From Sagittula stellata E-37 (GTDB taxonomy: Bacteria; Pseudomonadota; Alphaproteobacteria; Rhodobacterales; Rhodobacteraceae): DNA of 64,000 nt. The position numbers and the translations under genes are program-made. The notes beneath the pieces are model-generated. The model searched no databases. It had not been told where the DNA came from and was given only the letters and a program-made list of their open reading frames with translations. Where the stretch lies: NCBI RefSeq assembly GCF_039724765.1, contig NZ_CP155729.1:3915501-3979500 (forward strand), in the 5' to 3' direction. Shown piece after piece: positions 6,734-36,793 of this stretch; the first letter of the stretch is position 1, and every line of letters begins with the position of its first letter.

Positions 6734-7846
6734 ATGGATTTCCTGACCCCTGAAGAAAAGGCAAGCGTCACCAAGACCGATTGCGGATTGGGCCACGCCT
6801 GCCAGTTCTGCCCCAAGGAAGCGGGCTGCAAGCTCGACAAGCCGTACCACAACAAGGTTCTGATCGAACGCCGCTTGCAGGAGATCGACCAAATCATCGT
6901 CGTTCTGGCCAACAAGGGCGGCGTCGGCAAAAGCACGGTCAGCGCCAATCTGGCCGCCGGGCTGGCGCGCGAAGGTTTTCGCGTGGGTGTCGCGGATGCC
7001 GACATCCACGGCCCCAACCAAAGCCGGTTCTTCGGCTTCGCCGGCGCCAAGATCCGCACCACCCCGGCAGGGTTGCAGACCCATGGGTTTGTGGCCGACG
7101 GGATCGACCACCCGGTCGAGGTCGGATCGCTGGCCTTCATGCTCGAAGACGACACCACCCCGATCGTCTGGCGCGATGCCTACAAGCACGACTTCATCCA
7201 CCACCTGATCGGCAGCTTCGACTGGGGGTCGCTCGACTTTCTGGTGGTCGACATGCCCCCCGGCACCGGCAACGAGCTGATCACGCTCTGCGACATGCTC
7301 GAAGGCAGCAACGTCTCGGCGGTTCTGGTGACTTCGCCGCAGGCGGTGGCACAGATGGACAGCCTCAAGGCCGGGCGGTTCTGCCGCGAACGCGGCCTGC
7401 CTGTCATCGGTGCGGCCGTGAACATGGCCGGCGTGCAATGCCCGAACTGTCACGAGGAATTCCACCTGTTTCCGGACGCGGGCGTCGCCGAGGCGTTGGG
7501 CAAACTCGACATCAGAAAACTTGCCGAGATCCCGCTCTCGCCCGATCTCGCATTGGGGTCCGACCGCGGCGAACCCGTCGTGACCGCAATGCCCGACAGC
7601 GTGGTGGCGCGCGCCTTCGCGCCGATGATCGAAGCGGTCTCGGCGCTGGGACGCGCAGGGTTTCACGAGGCGGTCGCCGCAACCATGCAGGACGTCTTTG
7701 CCGAAAACCTGAATGACGAGGATTTGCAGGCGGCGATGTCGGCATTGGCCGAAGGCGATGTCCTGGGTGCCGAGCTTTCGGATCTGCTGAACCAGGAGGC
7801 GAGCAGACTGAAACAGGCCTCGCAACCGGCAAAGGGACGCGGATAA
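6734..7846 (+). CDS. Mrp/NBP35-family P-loop ATPase, putative Fe-S carrier
   Basis: Walker A is NKGGVGKST (~60-68), with the deviant Lys near the start of the motif as in MinD/Mrp proteins. VVDMPPGTGNE (~173-183) is the classical Mrp motif. A Cys-rich N-terminus, CGLGHACQFCPKEAGC (~17-32), precedes it, and CPNC occurs at ~236-239. Mrp/NBP35 proteins assemble or carry Fe-S clusters. The extra N-terminal cysteines recall NBP35/ApbC-type cluster-binding proteins. It starts 4 bases after ddhC and its stop abuts the next gene, so it belongs to the same transcript. A role in loading clusters of this multi-cluster enzyme is a reasonable inference. Length 370 aa. Confidence 0.85.
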   Translation: MDFLTPEEKASVTKTDCGLGHACQFCPKEAGCKLDKPYHNKVLIERRLQEIDQIIVVLANKGGVGKSTVSANLAAGLAREGFRVGVADADIHGPNQSRFFGFAGAKIRTTPAGLQTHGFVADGIDHPVEVGSLAFMLEDDTTPIVWRDAYKHDFIHHLIGSFDWGSLDFLVVDMPPGTGNELITLCDMLEGSNVSAVLVTSPQAVAQMDSLKAGRFCRERGLPVIGAAVNMAGVQCPNCHEEFHLFPDAGVAEALGKLDIRKLAEIPLSPDLALGSDRGEPVVTAMPDSVVARAFAPMIEAVSALGRAGFHEAVAATMQDVFAENLNDEDLQAAMSALAEGDVLGAELSDLLNQEASRLKQASQPAKGRG

Positions 7847-12707: not shown

Positions 12708-14352
12708 CGTCGCCCCAATAGGTCAGCCGCCCGTCGCAGATCGTCATCGCAACCGTCGCGGCCTCGGCACTCTGCGCCAATCCGTCGAGGTCGCCGTCGA
12801 TCAGCACCAGATCGGCGGCCAGCCCCGGCGTCAGCGCGCCGCGATGTGTTTCGCAAAAATCCGCATAGGCCCCGCCCGTGGTGTAGGCCGCCAGACAGTC
12901 GTCCAGCGTGATCCGCTGGTCCGGCATGTCGTCCCGCCAGGGGCTCCGGGTCAGAGCACAGTGGATGGCGTAAAGCGGCGAAAGTGGCGACACCGGCCAA
13001 TCCGTGCCAAAGGCCAGCGGCACGCCCCGATCCCGGATCATCCGCCAGGGGAACGCCGTGGGCCAGCGTGCAGGTCCCATGATCGAGGTCGTCGGCTCCA
13101 GAGGCAGCCCGGCAGAGCCCGGAGGATGCACCGGCTGCATGGAGGCGACGATCCCCAGGGGCGCCAGCCGGTCGACATCCTCGGGCGTGATCGTGTCGAT
13201 ATGTTCGATCCGGTGGCGGGCATCGCGGGGGCCGTTAGCGCGGGCGGCGGCCTCGTAGCCGTCGATCGCCGCGCGCACGGCACCGTCGCCGACCGCATGG
13301 GTCGCCACTTGCAAGCCGCGCCTGTCGGCCTCGATACAGATCGCGTTGAATAGGTCCGGCGCGATCAGCGGCTCGGAGCGGAAGCCCGCCCGGTCGGGAT
13401 AATCGGTGACGGTAAGCGCGGTCCAGGTGTCATAGACCCCGTCGAGGAAGAGCTTGATGCGCCGGAAGTGCAGCCAGCCGGGCACTTCCTCGCCGAACTG
13501 TTCGATCCGGGCGACACCGGCCACCCCGTCGCTTTCATCGAGCTTGAGCGGCAGGCTCACGCGCACCGGCATCTCGCCGGCCAACGCCAGATCCCTGAGG
13601 AGCCCCGCCTGGTAGGGATTGCCGTCCATGTTCACGGCACTGGTGATTCCATGGCGCGCGCAATACTCCCCGGCCAGGCGGAGCAGGCCACGGTCATACG
13701 CCCGCGCGGCGTCTGTCTCCGGCTCAAGCCCCTGGTTGCCGAGGCTGTCCCGCCCCTTGAGCTCGGAGAGCTGCTGCACGAAGCTCATTGCCGCGAATTC
13801 GCGCAGCTCTCCGGTGGCCAGCCCGTCTTCGCCCATGACCACCTCGGAGCCCGGTTCGACCTCGGCGCCCCGCAGCACCCCGGCCAATTCGAGCGCGCGG
13901 GTATTGGCCCAGCCGCAATGCAGATCCACCGAGGACATGAAGATCGGACGATCCGGGCTGATCCGGTCCAGCAGGTGCCGGTCGGGGCGACGGTCTTCGC
14001 CGAAGATCGTGTAGTTCGCGGCAAAGGCCGAATGCAGGGGCGCATCCGGGGTTTCGTCGATGAAGCTTCGGAAGGCAGTGCTGACGGCCTTGAGGCCAAA
14101 GACCTCGCCCAGGTTCAGCATCGACAGCGTGGCGCCGCCCATGAAAAGGTGCAGGTGGCTTTCGATGAAGCCGGGCAAGAGTTCCCGCCCGCCAGCGTCG
14201 ATTACGCGGGTCTGCGGCCCGATGAACGCGCGGATGTCATCATCGCCGCCCAGCGCCGCGATCTTCCCATCAAGGATCGCAACAGCCGTCGTGCCGGGGG
14301 CTGCAAAGAGCGGGCGCACCCGGGCGTTCAGAAAGACAAGATCGGCGTGCAT
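12694..14352 (-). CDS. YtcJ/AepA-like metal-dependent amidohydrolase
   Basis: Cytoplasmic TIM-barrel hydrolase of the amidohydrolase superfamily. Metal-binding motifs are visible: GFIESHLHLF (~60-69, HxH), a His in VDLHCGWANTRAL (~140), then ATHAVGDGAVRAAIDG and HRIEHIDTI (~355-395), and an Asp in LAFGTDWPVSP (~475). The 552-residue length and the HCGWAN and GTDWPV signatures are typical of YtcJ-like enzymes, which hydrolyse N-acyl or amide bonds. It follows the solute-binding-protein gene on the same strand, so the imported compound is plausibly its substrate or precursor. Exact reaction unknown. Confidence 0.88.
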   Translation of the reverse strand: MHADLVFLNARVRPLFAAPGTTAVAILDGKIAALGGDDDIRAFIGPQTRVIDAGGRELLPGFIESHLHLFMGGATLSMLNLGEVFGLKAVSTAFRSFIDETPDAPLHSAFAANYTIFGEDRRPDRHLLDRISPDRPIFMSSVDLHCGWANTRALELAGVLRGAEVEPGSEVVMGEDGLATGELREFAAMSFVQQLSELKGRDSLGNQGLEPETDAARAYDRGLLRLAGEYCARHGITSAVNMDGNPYQAGLLRDLALAGEMPVRVSLPLKLDESDGVAGVARIEQFGEEVPGWLHFRRIKLFLDGVYDTWTALTVTDYPDRAGFRSEPLIAPDLFNAICIEADRRGLQVATHAVGDGAVRAAIDGYEAAARANGPRDARHRIEHIDTITPEDVDRLAPLGIVASMQPVHPPGSAGLPLEPTTSIMGPARWPTAFPWRMIRDRGVPLAFGTDWPVSPLSPLYAIHCALTRSPWRDDMPDQRITLDDCLAAYTTGGAYADFCETHRGALTPGLAADLVLIDGDLDGLAQSAEAATVAMTICDGRLTYWGDDGNL

Positions 14353-28659: not shown

Positions 28660-29002
28660 ACCTCTCCCAGATAGCGTATTCGATGCGGGCGCCAACAGGA
28701 CATGCAGTCGATCGGCATCAGTCCGGCGACGCGAACGATCAATCGGCCAAAGGCCGGAGTCTTCCATCCTGCGTCACGACCTGATCTGGATGTGAGGTCG
28801 CATTCCTGGCGATCATCGCTTGGCGGCACTGCGCAGCCACATGGCTGGTGCGCGATCGGTTCCAGCCATGCCTATGGCGTTTGCCAACCTTTCGCTGCGG
28901 CAACTCTCCGCCCTCCCAGTGCTCTGCGGACCTACATGGGGCTTGTCGCACATATCAGCGATGAGGATTCACTGTAGGAATCCAGTGCGTTGGATCGGTG
29001 TC
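28660..29002. other. Intergenic region, no gene recognised
   Basis: About 340 bp between the channel start and the IS5 pseudogene. No convincing coding frame. I looked for a transposon left end of the TGTGA-N9-AAGATTGGAA type that would pair with the right end at 30399 and did not find one here or in 26.9-27.3 kb. Confidence 0.35.
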
Positions 29003-30155
29003 ATGCCGAGGCCCTCTCCCTCCCGCTATCGCACGACGGACTGGTCCGAATAAAACACTGCGCTGCGCCGGCGGGGTTCGCTCTGGGTCTGGTTTGATCC
29101 CGACACGGTCCGGCACGCCGGAAAGACCGGTAAACGGGGGCGGCCCGAGACGTTCTCGGACGCCGCGATCCAAACCTGCCTGACGCTGGAGGGTGAGGGG
29201 CGTCTCGGCAACGATCCGGGGGATCGTTTCAGCCCTGAACGGGCGGAGCCCCGGCCTGTTCGGCCTTCCGCTTCTGCAGACGGTCGGGCCGGTCGAGAGC
29301 CCGATCCGGATGGCTGGGCGCGACCGGCGGGCTCCGGACTGTTCGGCGCTGTGCCGACGGCAAGCGCGGATCGGGGTCAGATCCCCTGTCGCCGCTCGGG
29401 CAAGCCCTTGAACCTGCCGATCCCCTCTCGTGACATCACCGCGCGATGCACGGCCGGGCAGCGGACAGCACGGGGGTGACGTTCGGTGGCGGTGGCGCAT
29501 GGCCGGCCCGGAAGCATCGCGCCTCCGGCCAGAGGCAATGGCGCAAGGTTCACATCGCCCCGGACACGGAAACCGGCGACATACGCGCGGTCGAGTTCAC
29601 CTCAGGCCGCCATGGCGACAGCCCGCTGCTGCCAGACCTGCTGTCGCACATTCCCGAGGGCGAGGAGATCGCCACCGTCACGGCCCCTCTCGGGATCATG
29701 CGACGCATGACCCTGCCGGGCAACGGACGGCGCATCCGACACACGCCGATGCCATCCCGCCATCGTCGAGCACGGCGCCGATGCCGTCATACCGATCCAC
29801 CGGAACGGCCGCGCCTGGAAAGAAGACTGCCCCGCAGCATTGGCGCGAAACGAGATCCTGCGCGCGACGCGACACCTCGGCAGGGCGCTCTGGAAGACGT
29901 GGGCCCGCTACCATGTCCGAAGTCGGGTCGAAGCTCAGCCTCTCGGGACATTGCTGTGCAATGCCCTGCTGGCCAAGGGATGAATTGCCTGAAGCTCTTC
30001 GGGGAGCGGATCATGTCCGTTCGCCATTGCCGCTCGGACCGATGGCGCATCGATGGCCCACCCCCGACCGTCAGACCCCCGAAATCCGGATCCGCATCGT
30101 CATCGTGAACCGCTTCCCGGCCCCCGGCAGAGCCGAGATCGAGGCTATCGCCTGA
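29003..30155 (+). pseudogene. IS5-family transposase, multiply broken
   Basis: The gene starts MPRPSPSRYRTTDWSE and then meets TAA where the family has Tyr (the next codons give NTALRRRGSLWVWFDPDTVR). GRPETFSDAAIQTCLTLEG follows. The central DDE region appears in another frame as DSTGVTFGGGGAWPARKHRA, QRQWRKVHIAPDTETGDIRA and DLLSHIPEGEEIATVTA. The last third is in a third frame (AVIPIHRNGRAWKEDCPAAL, then ILRATRHLGRALWKTWARYH), ending at TGA 30155 after RFPAPGRAEIEAIA. At least one stop, one deletion and two frameshifts kill it. It belongs to the same transposase type as many Rhodobacterales IS5 elements and is different from the 841-bp IS. Confidence 0.75.
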
Positions 30156-30221
30156 AGCACAACGGGAAAAGGGACCTTCAGCCCGAACCCCGATTTGCCC
30201 AAAAACGCCCACGGCCATATA

Positions 30222-30399
30222 TGTGCCCTCCCGTGTTCGTCAGACTTCAGTTTAGGGGCAAGGTCATACGGGCGCAAATCTCTGTCAGTTCGGAAGGATT
30301 ATGGACGGTGAGGCGTTCGGAATGTCAGCTGATGCCAGTCTTGCCCGGGCAAGATGCCAAGTAGAACCGGATAGGTTCCAATCTTCGGCGAATGTCACA
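30222..30399. repeat. Right end of an outer Tn7/Tn5053-like element (element 1)
   Basis: This ~178-bp stretch is about 80-85% identical, in the same orientation, to 36534-36709. The last 65 bp differ at only four positions. It ends TTCCAATCTT-N9-TCACA (30376-30399), the same terminal design as the other two ends. A further internal site is CCAGTCTTG near 30332, inside the palindrome TCTTGCCCGGGCAAGA. I read it as the right terminus of an older element whose left part is lost or not recognised. The IS5 pseudogene would lie inside it. Confidence 0.55.
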
Positions 30400-30403
30400 T
30401 GGA

Positions 30404-30560
30404 TGTGATATCCGGTTAAGATTGGAATCTGACACGTTCCCAAGTGATTGATCCAGAATCTTTTCCCATTTGGCATCAAAATCAAATTGGAGTATTTTTC
30501 GGGTAAGACTGGAACCTCCGCGCTCTTGCACCCCAAAGCCCATAAGACTGCGATTCAGGT
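30404..30560. repeat. Left end of the inner Tn7/Tn5053-like element (element 2)
   Basis: TGTGA (30404-30408), nine bases, then AAGATTGGAA (30418-30427). This is the mirror image of the right ends at 30399 and 36709, with identical spacing. Two more AAGACTG-type sites in the same orientation follow at ~30500 (AAGACTGGAACC) and ~30543 (AAGACTGCGATTCAGG). Three spaced sites at the left and closely packed sites at the right is the arrangement known for TnsB sites in Tn7. Only 4 bp (TGGA) separate it from the preceding right end. Confidence 0.55.
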
Positions 30561-30800
30561 CGCACTCTTTCCCGAATACCGCTGGCTGGGCGCAGACGTG
30601 GAGCAAAAGCCCAGACAGGGTACCTTGAGCAGCCCAGCACCGCGCTTCCCCCCCCCATCCTACTACCAGAAATGCCTTCGCCCTGCCGCGCAAGCGGCAG
30701 GGCGAGATTTCATTTACATTCACGATGGATGAGGCGGACAGGTCTCTCGACCAGATGAGCGCAGGACTAACCTGACAATATCCGTGGAAGTCTTGAGTCT

Positions 30801-31362
30801 TTATAGGCTTAGAATGTTTTCTCTGTCGTATACCCGTACATCACTCTCTGAAATCACGGAGCTAAGCTGCGAAGCTCTGACCAGTGCCATCACTTGTCTG
30901 GGCGTTAGCCCGAGATGTTGGGCGGCAGTCTTTGGTGTTTGGAGCCTTTCTAGGAAGCCCTCATAATCGTCGCACGTTACAAACTCCGCAGCGTTATGAA
31001 ACCCGTTGGGACGCCGTCGCTCCACCCGAAGCAGCCCAGCTGAAACCACTTTCCGGATTTCGCGGCTACTCAGGGCCAAACGCTTACGCACCTCCTCCAG
31101 TGTCAAATCGGCACGCTGTTGGCGGCGTATCGCGGCGAACAGCTCTCTATGACTAATTCTCAGTCCGGCGAGTCCGATCTCGGTCGTATTGATGTAGGAA
31201 CCGGGCAGCTCTCCCGCCTCAAGAAAGCGAAGAATTTGACCTGCGGGGCACCGCAACACAAATGACGCATGCGAGAGGCTGATCATATCTTTGCGGAGGG
31301 CATGATCGGGTTGGAGGATCGCCCGAGCTTTCATTCGGTTGAGGAGATCATCCAGCATTTTA
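30801..31362 (-). pseudogene. TniQ/TnsD-like protein, C-terminal fragment with HTH array
   Basis: Only the last ~187 codons remain; the 5' part is cut off by the 841-bp IS at 31363. The fragment contains three helix-turn-helix-like units: LSHASFVLRCPAGQILRFLE (~32-51), LTLEEVRKRLALSSREIRKV (~87-106) and TPKTAAQHLGLTPRQVMALV (~146-165), the last ending with VRVYDRENI. Arrays of such units are found in the C-terminal half of TniQ/TnsD target-selection proteins. The leftward orientation toward the left end matches the usual tnsABC-tniQ order. The N-terminal TniQ domain with its zinc finger is missing, so the call is tentative. Other MerR/excisionase-like DNA-binding proteins remain possible. Confidence 0.4.
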
Positions 31363-31419
31363 GGTTCAGGACCCATTGATTTGGTTGAGCGAGCGTGATT
31401 CACCGTTCGAAAACGAGCG

Positions 31420-31773
31420 GTGAACATGTCTGATCTCTACTGGTTGAGCGATGCGCAGATGGCGCGTCTGGAGCCTTACTTCCCCAAGTCGCACGGCAAG
31501 CCCCGGGTTGATGACCGGCGCGTTCTGAGCGGTATTATCTTTATCAATCGCAATGGATTGCGGTGGCGAGATGCGCCAAGGGAATACGGCCCGCACAAGA
31601 CACTCTACAACCGCTGGAAGCGGTGGAGCGATAGAGGCGTCTTCGCCCGGATCATGGCCGGGCTGGCGGGCGAGCATGGTGAGGAGACGACCGTGATGAT
31701 CGACGCAACTCATCTGAAGGCCCATCGCACGGCGTCCAGCCTGGGCGTGAAAAAGGGGGGCGTGGACGGCTGA
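31420..31773 (+). CDS. IS transposase OrfA (copy 1)
   Basis: 117 residues, N-terminal part of a DDE transposase (DUF4096-like: LYWLSDAQMARLEPYFPKSH, then RVDDRRVLSGIIFINRNGLR). The first catalytic Asp is in VMIDATHLKAHRTA (~97). The frame ends shortly after GVKKGGVDG. At 31750-31760 there is A5G6, a slippery run. OrfB is in the -1 frame, so a programmed -1 shift probably makes the full transposase. Confidence 0.85.
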   Translation: MNMSDLYWLSDAQMARLEPYFPKSHGKPRVDDRRVLSGIIFINRNGLRWRDAPREYGPHKTLYNRWKRWSDRGVFARIMAGLAGEHGEETTVMIDATHLKAHRTASSLGVKKGGVDG

Positions 31774-31793
31774 TTGGCCGGACGAAGGGAGGC

Positions 31794-32183
31794 ATGAACA
31801 CGAAGTTGCACGCCGTCTGCGACAGCCATGGCCGGCCCATCGACCTGTTCCTGACTGCCGGCCCCGTCAGCGACTACATCGGGGCGCGTGCGCTGGTCGG
31901 CGGGCTGCCAGACGTGAAATGGCTGCTCGGAGATCGCGGCTACGATGCCGACTGGTTCAGAGAAGCCTTGCAAGACAAGAAGATACGCCCTTGCATCCCG
32001 GGCCGGACGAAACGGAAGACGCCCGTCCCGTACGACAAGCGCAGGTACAAGCGTCGCAACCGGATCGAGATCATGTTCGGCAGGCTCAAGGATTGGAGAC
32101 GGGTGGCGACCCGTTATGACCGATGCCCAAAGACCCTCTTCTCAGCGATCGCACTCGCTGCGACCGTGATCTTCTGGCTTTGA
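31794..32183 (+). CDS. IS transposase OrfB (copy 1)
   Basis: C-terminal transposase half (129 aa), containing the second Asp region WLLGDRGYDADWFREAL (~43-59) and the last catalytic Glu region RRNRIEIMFGRLKDWRRVAT (~90-109). It overlaps the OrfA frame-shift zone and in practice is read as an OrfA-OrfB fusion; the frame is already open upstream of this ATG. It differs from copy 2 by one residue (Leu here, Phe there, in PKT-x-FSAIALA). Confidence 0.85.
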   Translation: MNTKLHAVCDSHGRPIDLFLTAGPVSDYIGARALVGGLPDVKWLLGDRGYDADWFREALQDKKIRPCIPGRTKRKTPVPYDKRRYKRRNRIEIMFGRLKDWRRVATRYDRCPKTLFSAIALAATVIFWL

Positions 32184-32205
32184 GAGAGAACGAGTCCTGA
32201 CCCTA

Positions 32206-32781
32206 GGTAACCGGCGGCAGGCACTTATTGCCCTGCACCGCTCTATACTCCAGGTTCAAGGTCACATCCAGGCACCGGGCGAGTACCATCGGCACGTTAC
32301 CGGCACGAATGCCGACGATGCAACGTGGCGGCCCGCGATCATTGAGATCGCGTCAAAGCTGAAAATCGTCCCTGGCATGACGTCCGAAATGTGGCTCGAG
32401 AGGGCTCGCGCCGTTCTGGCCCCCAATCTCGTGTCTTCCGCAACCATCAAGCAGCGCCTGCGGTCGACTTCCGGCCTTGAGGCCGCGTTGGTTAGCCCGC
32501 CGCTGGATTCGCATCCCGTGCGCACGATCCACTCGGCGAAGGGGTTGGAGTTCGCGGCGGTGTGCGTGGTCATGACGAGCAACAAGACCAAAAAAATATT
32601 CGCACATCTCGAAACTGGAGAGGGCACACAGGACTCTGCTGAGGATGCCCGGAAGATCTATGTGGCTGCGTCTAGGGCGAAACGGCTGCTGGTCATAGCA
32701 GTCCCGAAAAATTCGGCACGCAAACTGGAAGCGCTCCTGGCATCTCATGACTGCAAGACGCAGAGACATGACGTTGTTTGA
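32206..32781 (+). pseudogene. UvrD-like superfamily 1 helicase, C-terminal fragment
   Basis: The frame is open from the IS edge, with no start of its own at that point. It carries helicase motif V/Va as TIHSAKGLEFAAVCVV (~111-126 of the fragment) and motif VI as YVAASRAKRLLVIAV (~155-169). The Walker A/B ATPase half is missing, so the fragment cannot be an active helicase. UvrD-like helicases of this compact type occur next to OLD-nuclease genes (for example Gabija GajB) and other defence genes. Its stop is 14 bp before the AbiGi-like gene, so the intact ancestor was probably the first known gene of the same operon. Confidence 0.6.
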
Positions 32782-32795
32782 TCCTGGGAGGTGAC

Positions 32796-33443
32796 ATGGC
32801 GCTTATCGGAAGCATCGATCCGTCATGGAAGGACATGTCGAAATATGTGGTTCACTTCGCGAAGGCCGAACCGCCGAGTACGGCGTACGACAACGCGATT
32901 TCGATCCTTTTCGAACGGCGCATCGTCGCTGCGAAGACATTCGGCGCCGGTCGCAAGCTTGCTCCGGCGCGCAGGTCGGTATGCTTCAGCGAGGTGCCAC
33001 TTCACCATCTAAAGCGGTTGGCGGACGTCCGTGGTCCGCATGGGATCGGTTTTCGAAAGGAGTTTCTCGTCGAGCGTGGTGGTGGACCGATCCTTTACGC
33101 CTACAAGGACACGCCCCAAGCACAGTCGATCAACGCGATGGTGAATGCGGCGGCCAACGCCCCGGATGCGCCCGTCTGGAATATTGCACCCTTCGTGGAT
33201 CTGCCGGGCACTTATGGAAACTCAAAGTACCTCTATGAATGGGAGCGGGAATGGCGGCATGTTGGAGATCTCGACTTCTCCGAGACGGATCCGGCGTTTT
33301 TGATAATTCCGGAAGACCTCCATGACGCAGCCCGGGACTTCTTTCACTCTGCGAAGGTAGACCATGTGGGGCCGAGCTACGAATGCCCCTTTATCGATCC
33401 ATACTGGGGAGAGGACCAGATTGTTGCTGCACTGTATTCCTGA
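32796..33443 (+). CDS. AbiGi-like putative defence protein
   Basis: The start at ATG 32796 has GGGAGG 4 bases upstream. The 215-residue protein has SVCFSEVPLHHLKRLAD (~65-81), GIGFRKEFLVERGGGPILYA (~87-106) and YEWEREWRHVGDLDF (~152-166). This combination, (F/T)-E-(V/I)-PL, GIGF-(K/R)-KE and EREWR, resembles AbiGi, described as the antitoxin side of a type IV abortive-infection pair, and the DUF2971-like proteins. No signal peptide or membrane span. It lies 9 bp before the large gene that follows and is clearly co-transcribed. Identification is from memory of the family pattern and is moderate. Confidence 0.5.
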   Translation: MALIGSIDPSWKDMSKYVVHFAKAEPPSTAYDNAISILFERRIVAAKTFGAGRKLAPARRSVCFSEVPLHHLKRLADVRGPHGIGFRKEFLVERGGGPILYAYKDTPQAQSINAMVNAAANAPDAPVWNIAPFVDLPGTYGNSKYLYEWEREWRHVGDLDFSETDPAFLIIPEDLHDAARDFFHSAKVDHVGPSYECPFIDPYWGEDQIVAALYS

Positions 33444-33452
33444 CATTGCCCG

Positions 33453-35378
33453 ATGACCGCCGACGTCGAAACTTGTCCTGCCATTTGGAGCATTTTGTAT
33501 CGCCACGAGCCGAGCCGGGAAATCGGTCGGCGTAAGATCACGATCAAAAGGCCAAATTTAGTCGATCTAAAACTGGTCGACCAAGTGGTGCGTGAGCTGA
33601 ACCTCCCCGAGGTAATGGCACAGTTGGACGCAGCAGAGGTCGCAACGTTGGCTGCGGTAGCGGCCACCGCTAAAAAACAGCACGGTGATGATGCCGGGGC
33701 GTCGAACGCGCTTCAGGCGCTTTTGAAGTCGCGCCCAGGCGAACTCGATGTTGACATCGCGCTGGTGGCGATAGCTGATTACGGCGTTAATCGCGACATC
33801 CTCCGGGCCTTTCCTGAGATGACTCAATCCTCTGCCATGATTGAGGCAATCATTGAGGCAGCGACGCAAGGGTTATTGGCCGGCTGGCATCGCTACGTCG
33901 AACTGAACGCCTTGGTCGTCCGGGATCTGAACCAGGCCAGACGTGCCTTCCCCGCTGTGGAGAGACTTACCCGCGACTTCGCACCGACCGTACTTATCGC
34001 CGCAACAGCTCGTGGGCTCGGCTGGACGTCATGGGTTAAGCTTTTCGCGATCCTGTACGATGAAGTCGAGCTTGCCGGAGAGACCAGGTGCACCGTCCCG
34101 GAGAGACGTGGACCGGACACCGAAGAGACTTTCGCGATGCGGCGCGCAGCGTGGGATGTGATACTGCCCGACGGCTCGGTCAGAGAGGTCGCACAATTGA
34201 TCCTGGACCTCGACGGAGCGCTGTCTGCCTCCGGCCCTGACGTTCGCGCCGTCTATGTCCAGCGTTTGCGCAAGGCAATCGGTGGTGACGCCGATCTGCG
34301 CCGGGCGGCAGTAGAAGCTTTACTCAGCCGCTGCCCGCCGCGGCAGCATGATCTGGCGTTATTCGCTGCCACGCGGCTAGTCGAACCAGATGATGAGGCC
34401 TTTGTCAAGGCGCTCACCGAGCATCCAGATCGAGAAGTAGGTTACCGGGCCGACAAGTTACGCCACGCTGTATTTGGCAAATCGACCAGCGAAGAGGCTT
34501 GGCCAACTCCTAGTGTCAGCACTATCGCTCGGGGGCTTTTCAGCATCGGTCTGGATCCCATTCCGTCCAAATACCCAAAGACGTGGATTGGCGACCGGCT
34601 CGTCGAACTTCTCATTGAGCAGACAGTGGCGGGTGAGGAGAGGAGGTTCGCGGAGGAGTATTCAGATCACAGCGAGGAAGGAGAGGAAGGACTGCTTCGA
34701 AGCTTCTTCTCCCGCCTCGAATCTCGCCTTGGCGACTTGGGAGATGGTCTTCGAGCGACGGCAAGCGCCACCGGAGCAGCTCGCAATACGAGTATCGATC
34801 TGAAGTATCGGCCCGTCGATAAATCGGAGGAGGGTAAGCCGGGGGTGAACCCGAAGGGCGACGCCGAGCCCCCCGGCTTTTCCGCTGATCTATGCCTGAT
34901 CGTGGATCCGTATCTCGAAGACCGTTCTCTCGGCAAGCGCGCTACACTTATCCAGGCGAAGCGGCTGCGGCTCAAAGACCCCACCCAGTCAGACAAGGGC
35001 CTAGCCAGTTCCTTCAAGCTGGACCCTTTACAGATGACGGACCTGATCCGCCAAACAGGGTCATCCTTCTATCTGTTCCAATGCCCAGGACTGCTCGATC
35101 GGGGCGTACCTATGGTCGCGACGCAGCTCGTCGAGGATTTGGCGCGGCATCATGCAGCGAGCGCCGCTCAAATCCCAGCACACCTAGTTGGCCCTGCTTC
35201 TCGCCCGTTCGCAGAATGGCTCACGTACATGGTGCTGGGGTTGCGCACAGGTGACCCGCTGGCAGAGCTCGTGGCGAAGGCCGAAGGTGGTGCCGGACGG
35301 CGCCCGCGCCCTTTGGCGAAGTTTGGAACTGTCGAAATTGTGCTGCGCGTGGGTGACCTAAAGTCAAAGGACGATTGA
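33453..35378 (+). CDS. Unknown 641-aa protein with PD-(D/E)XK-like C-terminal motif
   Basis: Not recognised as a named family. Residues ~35-400 are predicted helical with Ala/Leu-rich repeats (for example AEVATLAAVAATAKK and AAVEALLSRCPPRQHDLALF), like HEAT-type scaffolds. An acidic stretch lies at ~400-420. Around 475-510 the sequence runs SADLCLIVDPYLEDRSLG and ATLIQAKRLRLKDP. Asp479 with Gln501-x-Lys503 has the D...(E/Q)xK spacing of restriction-endonuclease-like nucleases. A following SSFYLFQCPG segment is also conserved-looking. It is co-transcribed with the AbiGi-like gene and with the helicase remnant. A role as the effector nuclease of a defence operon is inference. GC is lower than in the flanking chromosome, as for the whole element. 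Confidence 0.6.
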   Translation: MTADVETCPAIWSILYRHEPSREIGRRKITIKRPNLVDLKLVDQVVRELNLPEVMAQLDAAEVATLAAVAATAKKQHGDDAGASNALQALLKSRPGELDVDIALVAIADYGVNRDILRAFPEMTQSSAMIEAIIEAATQGLLAGWHRYVELNALVVRDLNQARRAFPAVERLTRDFAPTVLIAATARGLGWTSWVKLFAILYDEVELAGETRCTVPERRGPDTEETFAMRRAAWDVILPDGSVREVAQLILDLDGALSASGPDVRAVYVQRLRKAIGGDADLRRAAVEALLSRCPPRQHDLALFAATRLVEPDDEAFVKALTEHPDREVGYRADKLRHAVFGKSTSEEAWPTPSVSTIARGLFSIGLDPIPSKYPKTWIGDRLVELLIEQTVAGEERRFAEEYSDHSEEGEEGLLRSFFSRLESRLGDLGDGLRATASATGAARNTSIDLKYRPVDKSEEGKPGVNPKGDAEPPGFSADLCLIVDPYLEDRSLGKRATLIQAKRLRLKDPTQSDKGLASSFKLDPLQMTDLIRQTGSSFYLFQCPGLLDRGVPMVATQLVEDLARHHAASAAQIPAHLVGPASRPFAEWLTYMVLGLRTGDPLAELVAKAEGGAGRRPRPLAKFGTVEIVLRVGDLKSKDD

Positions 35379-35446
35379 GGTGGGTCGCGTTAGTAGTGCG
35401 GAGGCATACTTAGGCGGTACTGGAAGACGGCAGATCGCCAAGTAGG

Positions 35447-35716
35447 TCATGGAATGACGAGAAGCCATTCGAAGATCACGGGGCCTGAGAGCGCCTGTGC
35501 GGTGCTGTAGGCGCGCAGGTCGCGCTCCAGCATCTGTTCAGCATAGGCCATGCGATCCGCCCAAGGGAGGGCGTCTCCGCCGCGCGCCATCTCCTCGCGG
35601 ATGATCGCCCGGCCGGATTCGGGGGTCGTGTGAAGGCCGTGGCGGGCGAGCTCGGTGATCAGGCTGGTCTTGCCCACACCGGGGCCGCCCGTCACGACGA
35701 AAAAACGGTCGCTCAT
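35447..35716 (-). pseudogene. AAA_28-type P-loop ATPase, 5' half only
   Basis: The frame opens MSDRFFVVTGGPGVGKTSLI with an intact Walker A (GGPGVGKTS) and continues ESGRAIIREEMARGGDALPW, typical of ~180-residue AAA_28 ATPases. After SGPVIFE, where the family reads 'FDRG-PD', it runs into WLLVIP and stops. Roughly the second half is missing. The break near 35470 lies 90 bp from the end of the large defence-type gene, so this is probably the junction created when that cargo arrived. Only 89 aa remain and it is unlikely to work. Confidence 0.6.
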
Positions 35717-35974
35717 GGGCCATCCTCGGGTTTGACAGGGGAAGGGCTGCGCAGCGATCGACGCGCCGAAACGCGGATCAAAGCAGCATAAATTCTCGTA
35801 GGGAAAACAGCACCGGTCTGAGCGGCAGAGGCAAATCCTCTGACGAGAAAGGCAGAACTATCTGGTGCTTTTCAACACCGATGCGAGCTGCCCTTGCGAG
35901 ATCAAACCTCCAAGCTCTTGCTCACCATGCGATCGCTCAACTAGCTGGTTCGCGCTGCCACCCGTTCGATTGGT

Positions 35975-36529
35975 CTACGGAAGCTCGTTTCCATGTTCGA
36001 CATCCGCCCAATGCTTGTTAACGGGCATACGGGCTGCCCGCTTTGCCATTTCCTCAATCTGGATCGGTCGAAAACCCCACTGGTCGACGCCGACATTTAT
36101 GCTGTTTCGCGAGCCTGCCCATTGGTCGTGGACGTGGCCGAACAGCTGTAGGGCGCCTCTGCGTGCGCCGTTCCAAGTGATCATCGGATAGTGGCAAAGG
36201 ACGAGGCTGTGTTCGCCGTCCTGGATCTCGGCCATGTACTCTGTGCTGGCCCAGGGGAGGGATATTACTGCTTCGTCGTCGTGGTTGCCAATGATCAGAT
36301 GCTTGCGGCCGGGCAGGCTGTGAAACCAGCTCTCGAACTGTGCCGTATCGGCAGCGCGACCGAAGGCAAAATCTCCCAAGATCCAGAGGTCATCATCATG
36401 CGCGACGCAGGCCTGAAAGTTGGCGATCAGGGCCGCGTTCATCTCGGCGGTTGAGGCGAAGGGGCGCTTGCAGAAGTCGATGATGCGGTGGTGGCCGAAG
36501 TGCAGGTCGGCCGAATACCAGTTGGCCAT
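35975..36529 (-). CDS. Calcineurin-like metallophosphoesterase
   Basis: The start at ATG 36529 gives MANWYSADLHFGHHRIIDFC. The dinuclear-metal motifs are complete: DLHFGH (~8-13), GDFAFG (~56-61), GNHDD (~80-84), CHYP (~112) and GHVHD (~131-135). 184 aa. Such small phosphoesterases act on nucleic-acid ends, nucleotides or phosphoproteins; the substrate cannot be read from sequence. The gene begins 2 bp inside the putative transposon right end and reads inward, so part of its promoter lies in the terminal repeat. It is apparently intact cargo. Confidence 0.8.
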   Translation of the reverse strand: MANWYSADLHFGHHRIIDFCKRPFASTAEMNAALIANFQACVAHDDDLWILGDFAFGRAADTAQFESWFHSLPGRKHLIIGNHDDEAVISLPWASTEYMAEIQDGEHSLVLCHYPMITWNGARRGALQLFGHVHDQWAGSRNSINVGVDQWGFRPIQIEEMAKRAARMPVNKHWADVEHGNELP

Positions 36530-36533
36530 GCCT

Positions 36534-36709
36534 GTGCCCTCCGTGCTCGTCAGACCACAGTTTAGGGACGAGATCACACCGGCGCAAATACCTGTCAGTT
36601 CAAAGGGATTCTGTACGGCGAAACGCTCGAAATGTCAGCAGATGCCAGTCTTGCTCGGGCAAGATGCCAAGTAGAACCGGATAAGTTCCAATCTTTGGCG
36701 AACGTCACA
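36534..36709. repeat. Right end of the inner Tn7/Tn5053-like element
   Basis: It ends TTCCAATCTT (36686-36695)-N9-TCACA (36705-36709). Read inward on the minus strand, further sites are AAGACTGGCATC, a weaker TGAACTGACAGG and a weaker TAAACTGTGGTC, so about four sites lie within ~150 bp. It contains an imperfect palindrome TCTTGCTCGGGCAAGA. Nine bases (GGAGGTCAT) separate it from the tRNA-Gln CCA. It is the copy to which 30222-30399 is a diverged direct repeat. Confidence 0.55.
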
Positions 36710-36718
36710 GGAGGTCAT

Positions 36719-36793
36719 TGGCTGGGGTGGTAGGATTCGAACCTACGGTGCGCGGTACCAAAAACCGGTGCCTTACCACTTGGCTACACCCCA
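36719..36793 (-). tRNA. tRNA-Gln (UUG), CCA encoded
   Basis: The minus strand begins TGGGGTGTAGCCAAGTGGTA and ends CACCCCAGCCA, so a complete 7-bp acceptor stem and the 3' CCA are encoded. The anticodon loop reads TTTTGGT, giving anticodon TTG. The T-arm is GTAGGTTCGAATCCTAC. The outer anticodon-stem pair (27-43) is C-C, a mismatch compared with the usual G-C or A-T; the other four pairs are intact. Its 3' end is the apparent insertion point of the neighbouring transposon-like element. Confidence 0.92.

Follow-up and report, generated by a model that had tools for sequence, protein, structure and literature searches.

Probable decayed Tn7-like transposons of a tRNA-Gln-homing Rhodobacterales family, stacked in Sagittula stellata E-37

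In the transposon Tn7 of Escherichia coli, which relies on TnsABC and TnsD and inserts at glmS, the transposase sites are spaced at the left end and packed at the right end, and the right end adjoins the target gene. Insertion produces a 5-bp duplication, as in the family described below, and Tn7 resists a second insertion nearby (PMC11406308). CRISPR-associated transposons (CASTs) of types I-B2 and I-D, namely PmcCAST and CyCAST, use a long TniQ/TnsD protein to home downstream of a tRNA gene (PMC10293859, PMC11406308). In addition, Benler et al. 2021 describe Tn7-like elements with Gabija and further defence cargo and mention integration downstream of tRNAs (PMC8649781). Tn5053 has no TnsA but does have a resolvase, and its targets are the resolution sites of plasmids (PMC11406308). 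Here we analyse a stretch of 64,000 nucleotides from Sagittula stellata E-37 (contig NZ_CP155729.1, positions 3,915,501 to 3,979,500), hereafter the window, in whose own numbering all window coordinates are given. Beside a tRNA-Gln(TTG) gene it carries what are, very probably, decayed members of a Rhodobacterales family of Tn7-like transposons with this gene as their target, stacked one next to the other.

Transposon ends, relatives and an empty site at tRNA-Gln

The window contains three copies of the pattern TGTGA-N9-AAGATTGGAA, each with zero mismatches, at 30376-30399 (minus strand), 30404-30427 (plus strand) and 36686-36709 (minus strand), exactly where the first-pass annotation, made from the sequence alone, had placed them. 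With up to two mismatches allowed, there are still exactly three matches in the 64-kb window, as compared to an expected 0.03, and three matches were reached in 0 of 100 shuffles of the window sequence. These sites are transposon ends. They belong to the right-end stub of an outer element (30213-30399, minus strand, terminus at 30399), to the left end of an inner element (30404-30583, plus strand) and to the right end of that inner element (36532-36709, minus strand). A gap of 4 bp (TGGA, 30400-30403) separates the outer right end from the inner left end, and the docking gene, tRNA-Gln(TTG) (36719-36793, minus strand), lies 9 bp from the inner right end, as first annotated. Over 168-169 bp, the two right ends (30231-30399 and 36541-36709) share 85% identity, in keeping with the earlier estimate of about 80-85%, and the 178-bp right end used as a query finds only these 2 copies in the window's genome. 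Candidate TnsB sites, recognised by TTGG/CTGG cores, are situated at +19, +40 and +62 in both right ends and at +19, +67, +84 and +106 in the left end, an array of putative transposase sites that appears spaced at the left and packed at the right; the packing first proposed for the right end is confirmed, with three cores in place of the four then counted. When 23 right ends and 5 left ends are aligned, conservation is among the highest in the blocks that surround the terminal sites, and the window's left end can be aligned with those of Alloyangia, Celeribacter, Pacificibacter and a Sinirhodobacter relic.

How tightly is the right end tied to tRNA-Gln? When used as a query against 394 genomes of the bacterial family (393 genera), the 178-bp right end matches 7, i.e., the window's own genome, 5 with tRNA-Gln(ttg) adjoining and 1 with a weak 46-base match and no tRNA. 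A right-end pattern of 27 positions, blind to the tRNA, was also scanned over 84,980 species; the five other genomes with an adjoining tRNA-Gln from the 394-genome search turn up again among its matches, meaning that the two counts are not independent. Here, tRNA-Gln(TTG) is 8-14 bp away in 18 of the 21 right-end matches, in two (Celeribacter baekdonensis, L052, and Pacificibacter marinus, L057) a left end follows after 8 and 6 bp, respectively, and the remaining one, in Candidatus Karelsulcia, has neither tRNA nor left end nearby and looks like chance. On a Thioclava plasmid, a right end 15 bp from tRNA-Gln is accompanied by the tail of a TnsB, by a gene for TniB and by a TniQ that is split and has 42% identity to the TniQ tail of the window; the tRNA-Gln gene with its docked element sits on this plasmid, p3 (L050 15245-15319). 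Note also that record L064 is titled Enemella evansiae, which we take to be an actinobacterium; the same contig is grouped with the window's family (G002), and the record may be misnamed.

The mobility of this family of elements is proven by its relatives. Elements with matching ends and with tnsA, tnsB, tnsC and tniQ, for which the first-pass annotation had suggested searching at the same distance from tRNA-Gln, do exist. In particular, the TnsA-TnsB-TnsC-TniQ element of Alloyangia mangrovi has matching ends and a 5-bp duplication, TTAGG, and lies 11 bp from tRNA-Gln: its left end is preceded by ...GTATGTTAGG, and its right end is followed by TTAGGAGATAT and then by tRNA-Gln. With the Alloyangia left flank as a query, 6 of 20 genomes of the genus match, A. 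mangrovi itself included. Eight of the 11 non-self matches, from five genomes, were inspected, the other three matching another part of the query, and in all 8 loci ...GTTAGG runs directly into AGATATTGGCTGGG, with TTAGG present a single time. A whole tRNA-Gln is found in 5 of these 8 loci, one per genome, and a broken copy in the other 3. The empty site sought by the first-pass annotation was therefore encountered in five other genomes of Alloyangia's genus, and the Alloyangia locus, as read from these sequences, records an insertion that took place 6 bp past tRNA-Gln and duplicated 5 bp. An empty-site search through the 394 family genomes returned nothing useful. The broken tRNA-Gln copies (L163, L164, L169) share the same left flank and look as if other, integrase-type, elements attach there.

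The relatives also supply the protein machinery. Alloyangia, Celeribacter and Puniceibacterium encode, consecutively, TnsA (290-313 residues), TnsB (717), TnsC (318-324) and TniQ (605-610), with tnsABC-tniQ oriented toward the left end in Celeribacter and Alloyangia; in the Puniceibacterium element, a left end was searched for and not found. The TnsA-like endonuclease gene lies upstream of tnsB, and its N-terminal domain (PF08722) scores 27.1-27.4 bits, just over the cut-off of 26.5. In TnsB, Mu-transpos_C is above and rve below the Pfam cut-off, the closest solved chains are TnsB or TnsAB proteins, and D291, D385 and E421 are invariant in 8 of 8 proteins. The Walker residues of TnsC are likewise invariant across eight proteins, and the Puniceibacterium TnsC matches TniB (PF05621) at 1.7e-19, as well as AAA_22. 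Finally, the TniQ domain is detected by Pfam at 4.4e-12, and the intact protein of about 605 residues contains DNA-binding repeats, a predicted layout that would fit the reading of a tRNA gene. Phylogenies of 16 TniQ and of 16 TnsB proteins both place the three Gln-type members in a well-supported cluster, the long-branch warnings falling outside this group. In Pacificibacter marinus (L057 / L134-L136), a gene for a 609-residue TniQ lies about 12 kb from the right-left junction, with no TnsABC matches.

Based on this, an intact copy would operate as follows. TnsB and TnsA would bind and cut the ends, TnsC would act as a bridge, and the long TnsD-like TniQ would select the target, its N-terminal TniQ core contacting TnsC and its C-terminal MerR/Xis-like domains reading the tRNA gene. 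Insertion would take place 8-15 bp beyond the 3' end of the tRNA, with the right end facing the gene, and would duplicate 5 bp while sparing the tRNA gene. A target that survives in this way stays open to a later relative, which can insert between the tRNA and the older copy and would thereby give the right-end/left-end tandem. The survivors in the window are the right-end stub of the outer element and, from the inner one, the left end, the tniQ tail, fragments of defence genes and the right end, together with two insertion sequence (IS) copies. Both the role of TniQ as reader of the tRNA gene and the order of events in the window are what we infer from the arrangement.

Stacking, decay and alternative explanations

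Right-left junctions are found in several places. Among Gln-type elements, the gap is 4 bp in the window, 8 bp in Celeribacter and 6 bp in Pacificibacter marinus, where no tRNA lies within the 40 kb read; at tRNA-Arg, the junction in G257b has a gap of 6 bp, and four junctions belong to the tRNA-Ala type described below. In one of the latter, in a member of the window's own genus (G412), the element beside tRNA-Ala is 17.1 kb long, contains matches to TnsA, TnsB, TnsC and TniQ and has CCTAT on either side, and an outer right end follows directly. Since known Tn7 resists a nearby second insertion, the tandems here imply weak immunity or escape from it. Paired right ends in tandems are 85%, 68% and 83% identical, and one could argue that such divergence permits escape from target immunity. 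However, the pair in strain GH2-2 is 94% identical, and end divergence is, for this reason, a weak candidate for the cause and does not explain all tandems.

The window copies themselves are decayed relics. The outer element is a right-end stub only, and an IS copy (28938-30209) that abuts the right end occupies the place expected for its body; this IS, presumably of the IS5 type, has 4 further near full-length copies (91-100%) and 1 partial copy in the same genome. Of the inner element's tniQ, 186 of about 605 residues are kept, as a 3' remnant (30801-31361, minus strand) coding for the helix-turn-helix/MerR-like DNA-binding part (HTH_17 above, MerR below cut-off). A TniQ-like tail had been proposed from the sequence alone, and it is real: it is 85% identical to the intact Alloyangia TniQ over 185 residues, 70% to that of Celeribacter and 69% to that of Puniceibacterium, and 25-29% identical to the C-terminal part of four TniQ proteins of about 600 residues. 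Used as a query, it matches in 12 of 394 family genomes, the others at 20-30% identity; a first contig scan with this query returned no relative. A second IS, of IS5 type (31363-32203, plus strand; DUF4096 and DDE_Tnp_1; ends read by eye), truncates tniQ. TnsA, TnsB and TnsC of five relatives give no match in the window (tblastn, E 0.01).

Further inside, the window retains cargo. A C-terminal remnant of GajB, the Gabija UvrD helicase (32377-32781, plus strand; PADLOC 2.3e-46, profile positions 446-576 of 577), is all that is present of Gabija, whereas the Puniceibacterium element carries GajA and GajB. It is followed by an AbiGi-like gene (32778-33443, plus strand; Pfam AbiGi 5.1e-10, PADLOC 2e-9) and by an open reading frame of 641 residues (33453-35378, plus strand) with no Pfam or PADLOC match, which, standing beside the AbiGi- and GajB-like genes, is a candidate defence gene. 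Near the right end lies a gene (35975-36532, minus strand; no Pfam match at 0.001) that we presume, from motifs read by eye, to be metallophosphoesterase-like, and whose start also occurs in relatives. Between the two, a right end of the tRNA-Ala type is embedded (35705-35875, minus strand), 94% identical to the right end at tRNA-Ala in strain GH2-2. Such an end lies 845-849 bp from tRNA-Gln in the window as well as in G403, G406 and G408, and its near-constant position in three other genomes implies that the right part of the family is an old mosaic. This right-end type, the IS boundary of the outer stub and the IS cut in tniQ were all absent from the first-pass annotation.

Does the tandem in the window really record two related elements arriving in succession, as was first suggested? 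The ends and the docking at the tRNA hold, but the inner element is flanked by ATGGA on the left and GGAGG on the right, with no 5-bp duplication; that both present ends stem from one insertion is, consequently, not provable. The tandem gap, what is more, is only 4 bp rather than at least 5. Taking these two features together with the mosaicism visible in the embedded tRNA-Ala-type right end and with the two IS copies and the losses beside them, one can propose that the inner left and right ends derive from different insertions and were joined by deletion or recombination among stacked copies. We consider this a real but lesser possibility: the other tandems have gaps of 5-8 bp, as predicted by successive insertion, the inner elements of the G257b and G412 tandems have exact duplications, and duplications decay over time. 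Two clean successive insertions are the best reading and a likely one, although unproven for this copy.

The flanks and the short gap of the window copy weigh against our interpretation, and they are not alone in this. Of the four genomes in the genus to which the window belongs, G413 retains a decayed right end, 12 bp from tRNA-Gln, no right end is present there in G412 or G262, and no empty site for the window element itself is found in these three. An exact 5-bp duplication is present in 1 of 3 Gln-type cases; in Alloyangia the left and right ends lie on two separate contigs, and the Celeribacter inner element has the unmatched flanks GGTGT and ACAGG, assuming that the right end on contig 16 belongs to it. 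In addition, the spacer to tRNA-Gln varies between 8 and 15 bp, the structure model of TniQ has a low predicted template modelling score (0.45), and a left-end pattern was recovered in 5 of 26 genomes or records, one of these being really a right end (G401, Aquimixticola), with a reversed control matching 1. Finally, of the 19 genomes or records in which a right end occurs, only 4, one of them Thioclava, yielded a TniQ close to that of this family, and many right ends look like solo relics. Repeats occurring without a transposase were named at the outset as grounds for abandoning the transposon-end reading; in part this is what we see, yet the empty site removes the worry.

The remaining alternatives fare worse. 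A Tn5053/Tn402-like element, moving replicatively with TniA, TniB, TniQ and a resolvase, would agree with the TniB (PF05621) and TniQ domain matches, but it is very unlikely, given the TnsA-like gene (PF08722) before tnsB in relatives, a TniQ of about 605 residues with DNA-binding repeats and a target that is a tRNA flank and not a res site; from the initial label of Tn7/Tn5053-like, only the first half survives, and the family is Tn7-like. Somewhat less likely still is RNA-guided, CAST-like homing by an element guide RNA matching tRNA-Gln, a route by which V-K CASTs reach tRNA genes (PMC11406308). We rejected it, as no guide match to tRNA-Gln appears in three elements: the tRNA-Gln region shares no exact match longer than 11 nt with the Alloyangia, Puniceibacterium and window elements, and the best 24-mer has 6-7 mismatches. 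Looking for CRISPR-like repeats, we found no 20-mer present three times in the three elements, cas genes not having been searched by profile. That the repeats are a conserved, non-mobile flank of tRNA-Gln, as the many right ends there with no transposase found might suggest, is scarcely credible for a sequence present in only 7 of 394 family genomes (in one by a short weak match), with a second copy 6.3 kb away in the window, and is refuted by the empty site. Just as improbable is an integrase-type genomic island, for which the broken tRNA-Gln copies suggest that other elements use the gene: here the tRNA is undamaged and the 5-bp duplication falls beyond it, the ends contain repeated sites, and tnsABC-tniQ is present in the relatives.

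Related families at other tRNA genes

Tn7-like docking is not restricted to tRNA-Gln. Four related elements of about 17-20 kb (G257, G127, G308, G231) are docked at tRNA-Arg(ACG), 9-10 bp beyond the gene, and all 4 have exact 5-bp duplications; the tniQ of G127 is fragmented. When 13 tRNA-linked loci were searched automatically for duplications, the random controls were clearly beaten in the 4 Arg-type loci and marginally in G399C44 (21 vs 20), and were not beaten in the other 8. Two observations at this tRNA stand apart. In Pacificibacter marinus (L176, L177), one TniQ lies at the docking end of tRNA-Arg(ACG) and a second after tnsABC about 15 kb away, perhaps a two-selector element; and in G308 and G231 (L043-L046), beyond the duplication and outside the Arg-type left end, there is a similar end-like sequence with TGACC repeats, which may perhaps mark a third transposon family. 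For the tns sister clade that is closest (G257a, G218), a search for the ends found none.

A further right-end type gives 17 matches in 11 of 32 genomes searched. Eight of these, in 8 genomes, lie 8-11 bp past tRNA-Ala(GGC), 4 are right-left junctions, 4 are within tRNA-Gln elements and 1 has no tRNA near. Duplications are exact in 2 of 4 cases (G412, and G405 across two contigs), agree at 4 of 5 bases in G397 and are lacking in G408. The case for tRNA-Ala docking, as it appears from the sequences, is carried by the adjacency in 8 genomes and by the junctions read directly. Possible ends also lie about 8-12 bp past tRNA-Lys(TTT) (L190 near 7592-7667) and tRNA-Met(CAT) (L186 near 13206-13282), near other TniQ genes and with no duplication found; with the duplication search not above controls, these are leads only.

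The tniQ gene itself has been exchanged. Namely, over 4,885 bp the tnsABC DNA of Fluviibacterium (G409) is 94% identical to that of strain GH2-2 (G408), the similarity stops about 31 bp inside tniQ and resumes 16-97 bp past it, and the two TniQ proteins are only 33.7% identical, which we read as a natural replacement of tniQ (L179 7594-9399, L182 4412-6205). As a case of retargeting by tniQ swap, G409 was discarded: right ends of the same type lie at tRNA-Ala in both genomes, the one in G409 on another contig than its tns genes, and a change of target is not shown. Extending this, we see roughly even chances for a broader picture in which Rhodobacterales harbour a set of Tn7-like families, the long TniQ of each reading another tRNA (Gln-TTG, Arg-ACG, Ala-GGC, perhaps more). 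The tRNAs would serve as docking ports, with newcomers landing between the tRNA and earlier occupants, and the islands of defence genes would build up as ordered stacks whose neighbouring members trade tniQ cassettes and ends.

Comparison with known systems

The transposon family that emerges has intact members, its ends are clean, an empty site exists, and it is tied to one tRNA gene, most likely via a protein selector. Relatives that are intact land just a few bases downstream of particular tRNA genes, and anti-virus genes can be among their cargo. The sister families together with the natural tniQ replacement make target reading by TnsD, and its swappability, directly testable. A landing that is short and spares the gene, next to tRNAs that are conserved, also makes the family interesting for the design of DNA insertion tools, and from the stacks the growth of defence islands can be dated in relative terms. 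In a literature search, we found no paper pairing 'Tn7-like' with 'tRNA-Gln' (other spellings were not searched) and none combining Tn7-like, tRNA, alphaproteobacteria and TniQ; the main text of PMC8649781 contains no word starting with 'Rhodobacter'.

With Tn7, the family shares TnsA, TnsB, TnsC and a long TniQ/TnsD. It differs in its target, tRNA-Gln and not glmS, in the occurrence of second insertions beside a first, and in sequence, which is far removed: Tn7 TnsB matches only at E 0.066, and no solved TnsC matches at E 0.01. The likeness to Tn5053/Tn402 consists of the TniB- and TniQ-domain proteins. Compared to CASTs I-B2 and I-D, which, according to the sources cited above, have a fused TnsAB, CRISPR-Cas and a second TniQ-type protein, TnsA and TnsB are here separate and no guide was found; CyCAST, moreover, is described there as inserting about 30-33 nt past tRNA-Leu, as opposed to 8-15 bp past tRNA-Gln. 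In other words, tRNA homing by TnsD is known in Tn7-like elements from those same sources, and what is distinctive here is the tRNA-Gln port, the offset of 8-15 bp, the stacking, and the separate TnsA and TnsB with no guide found.

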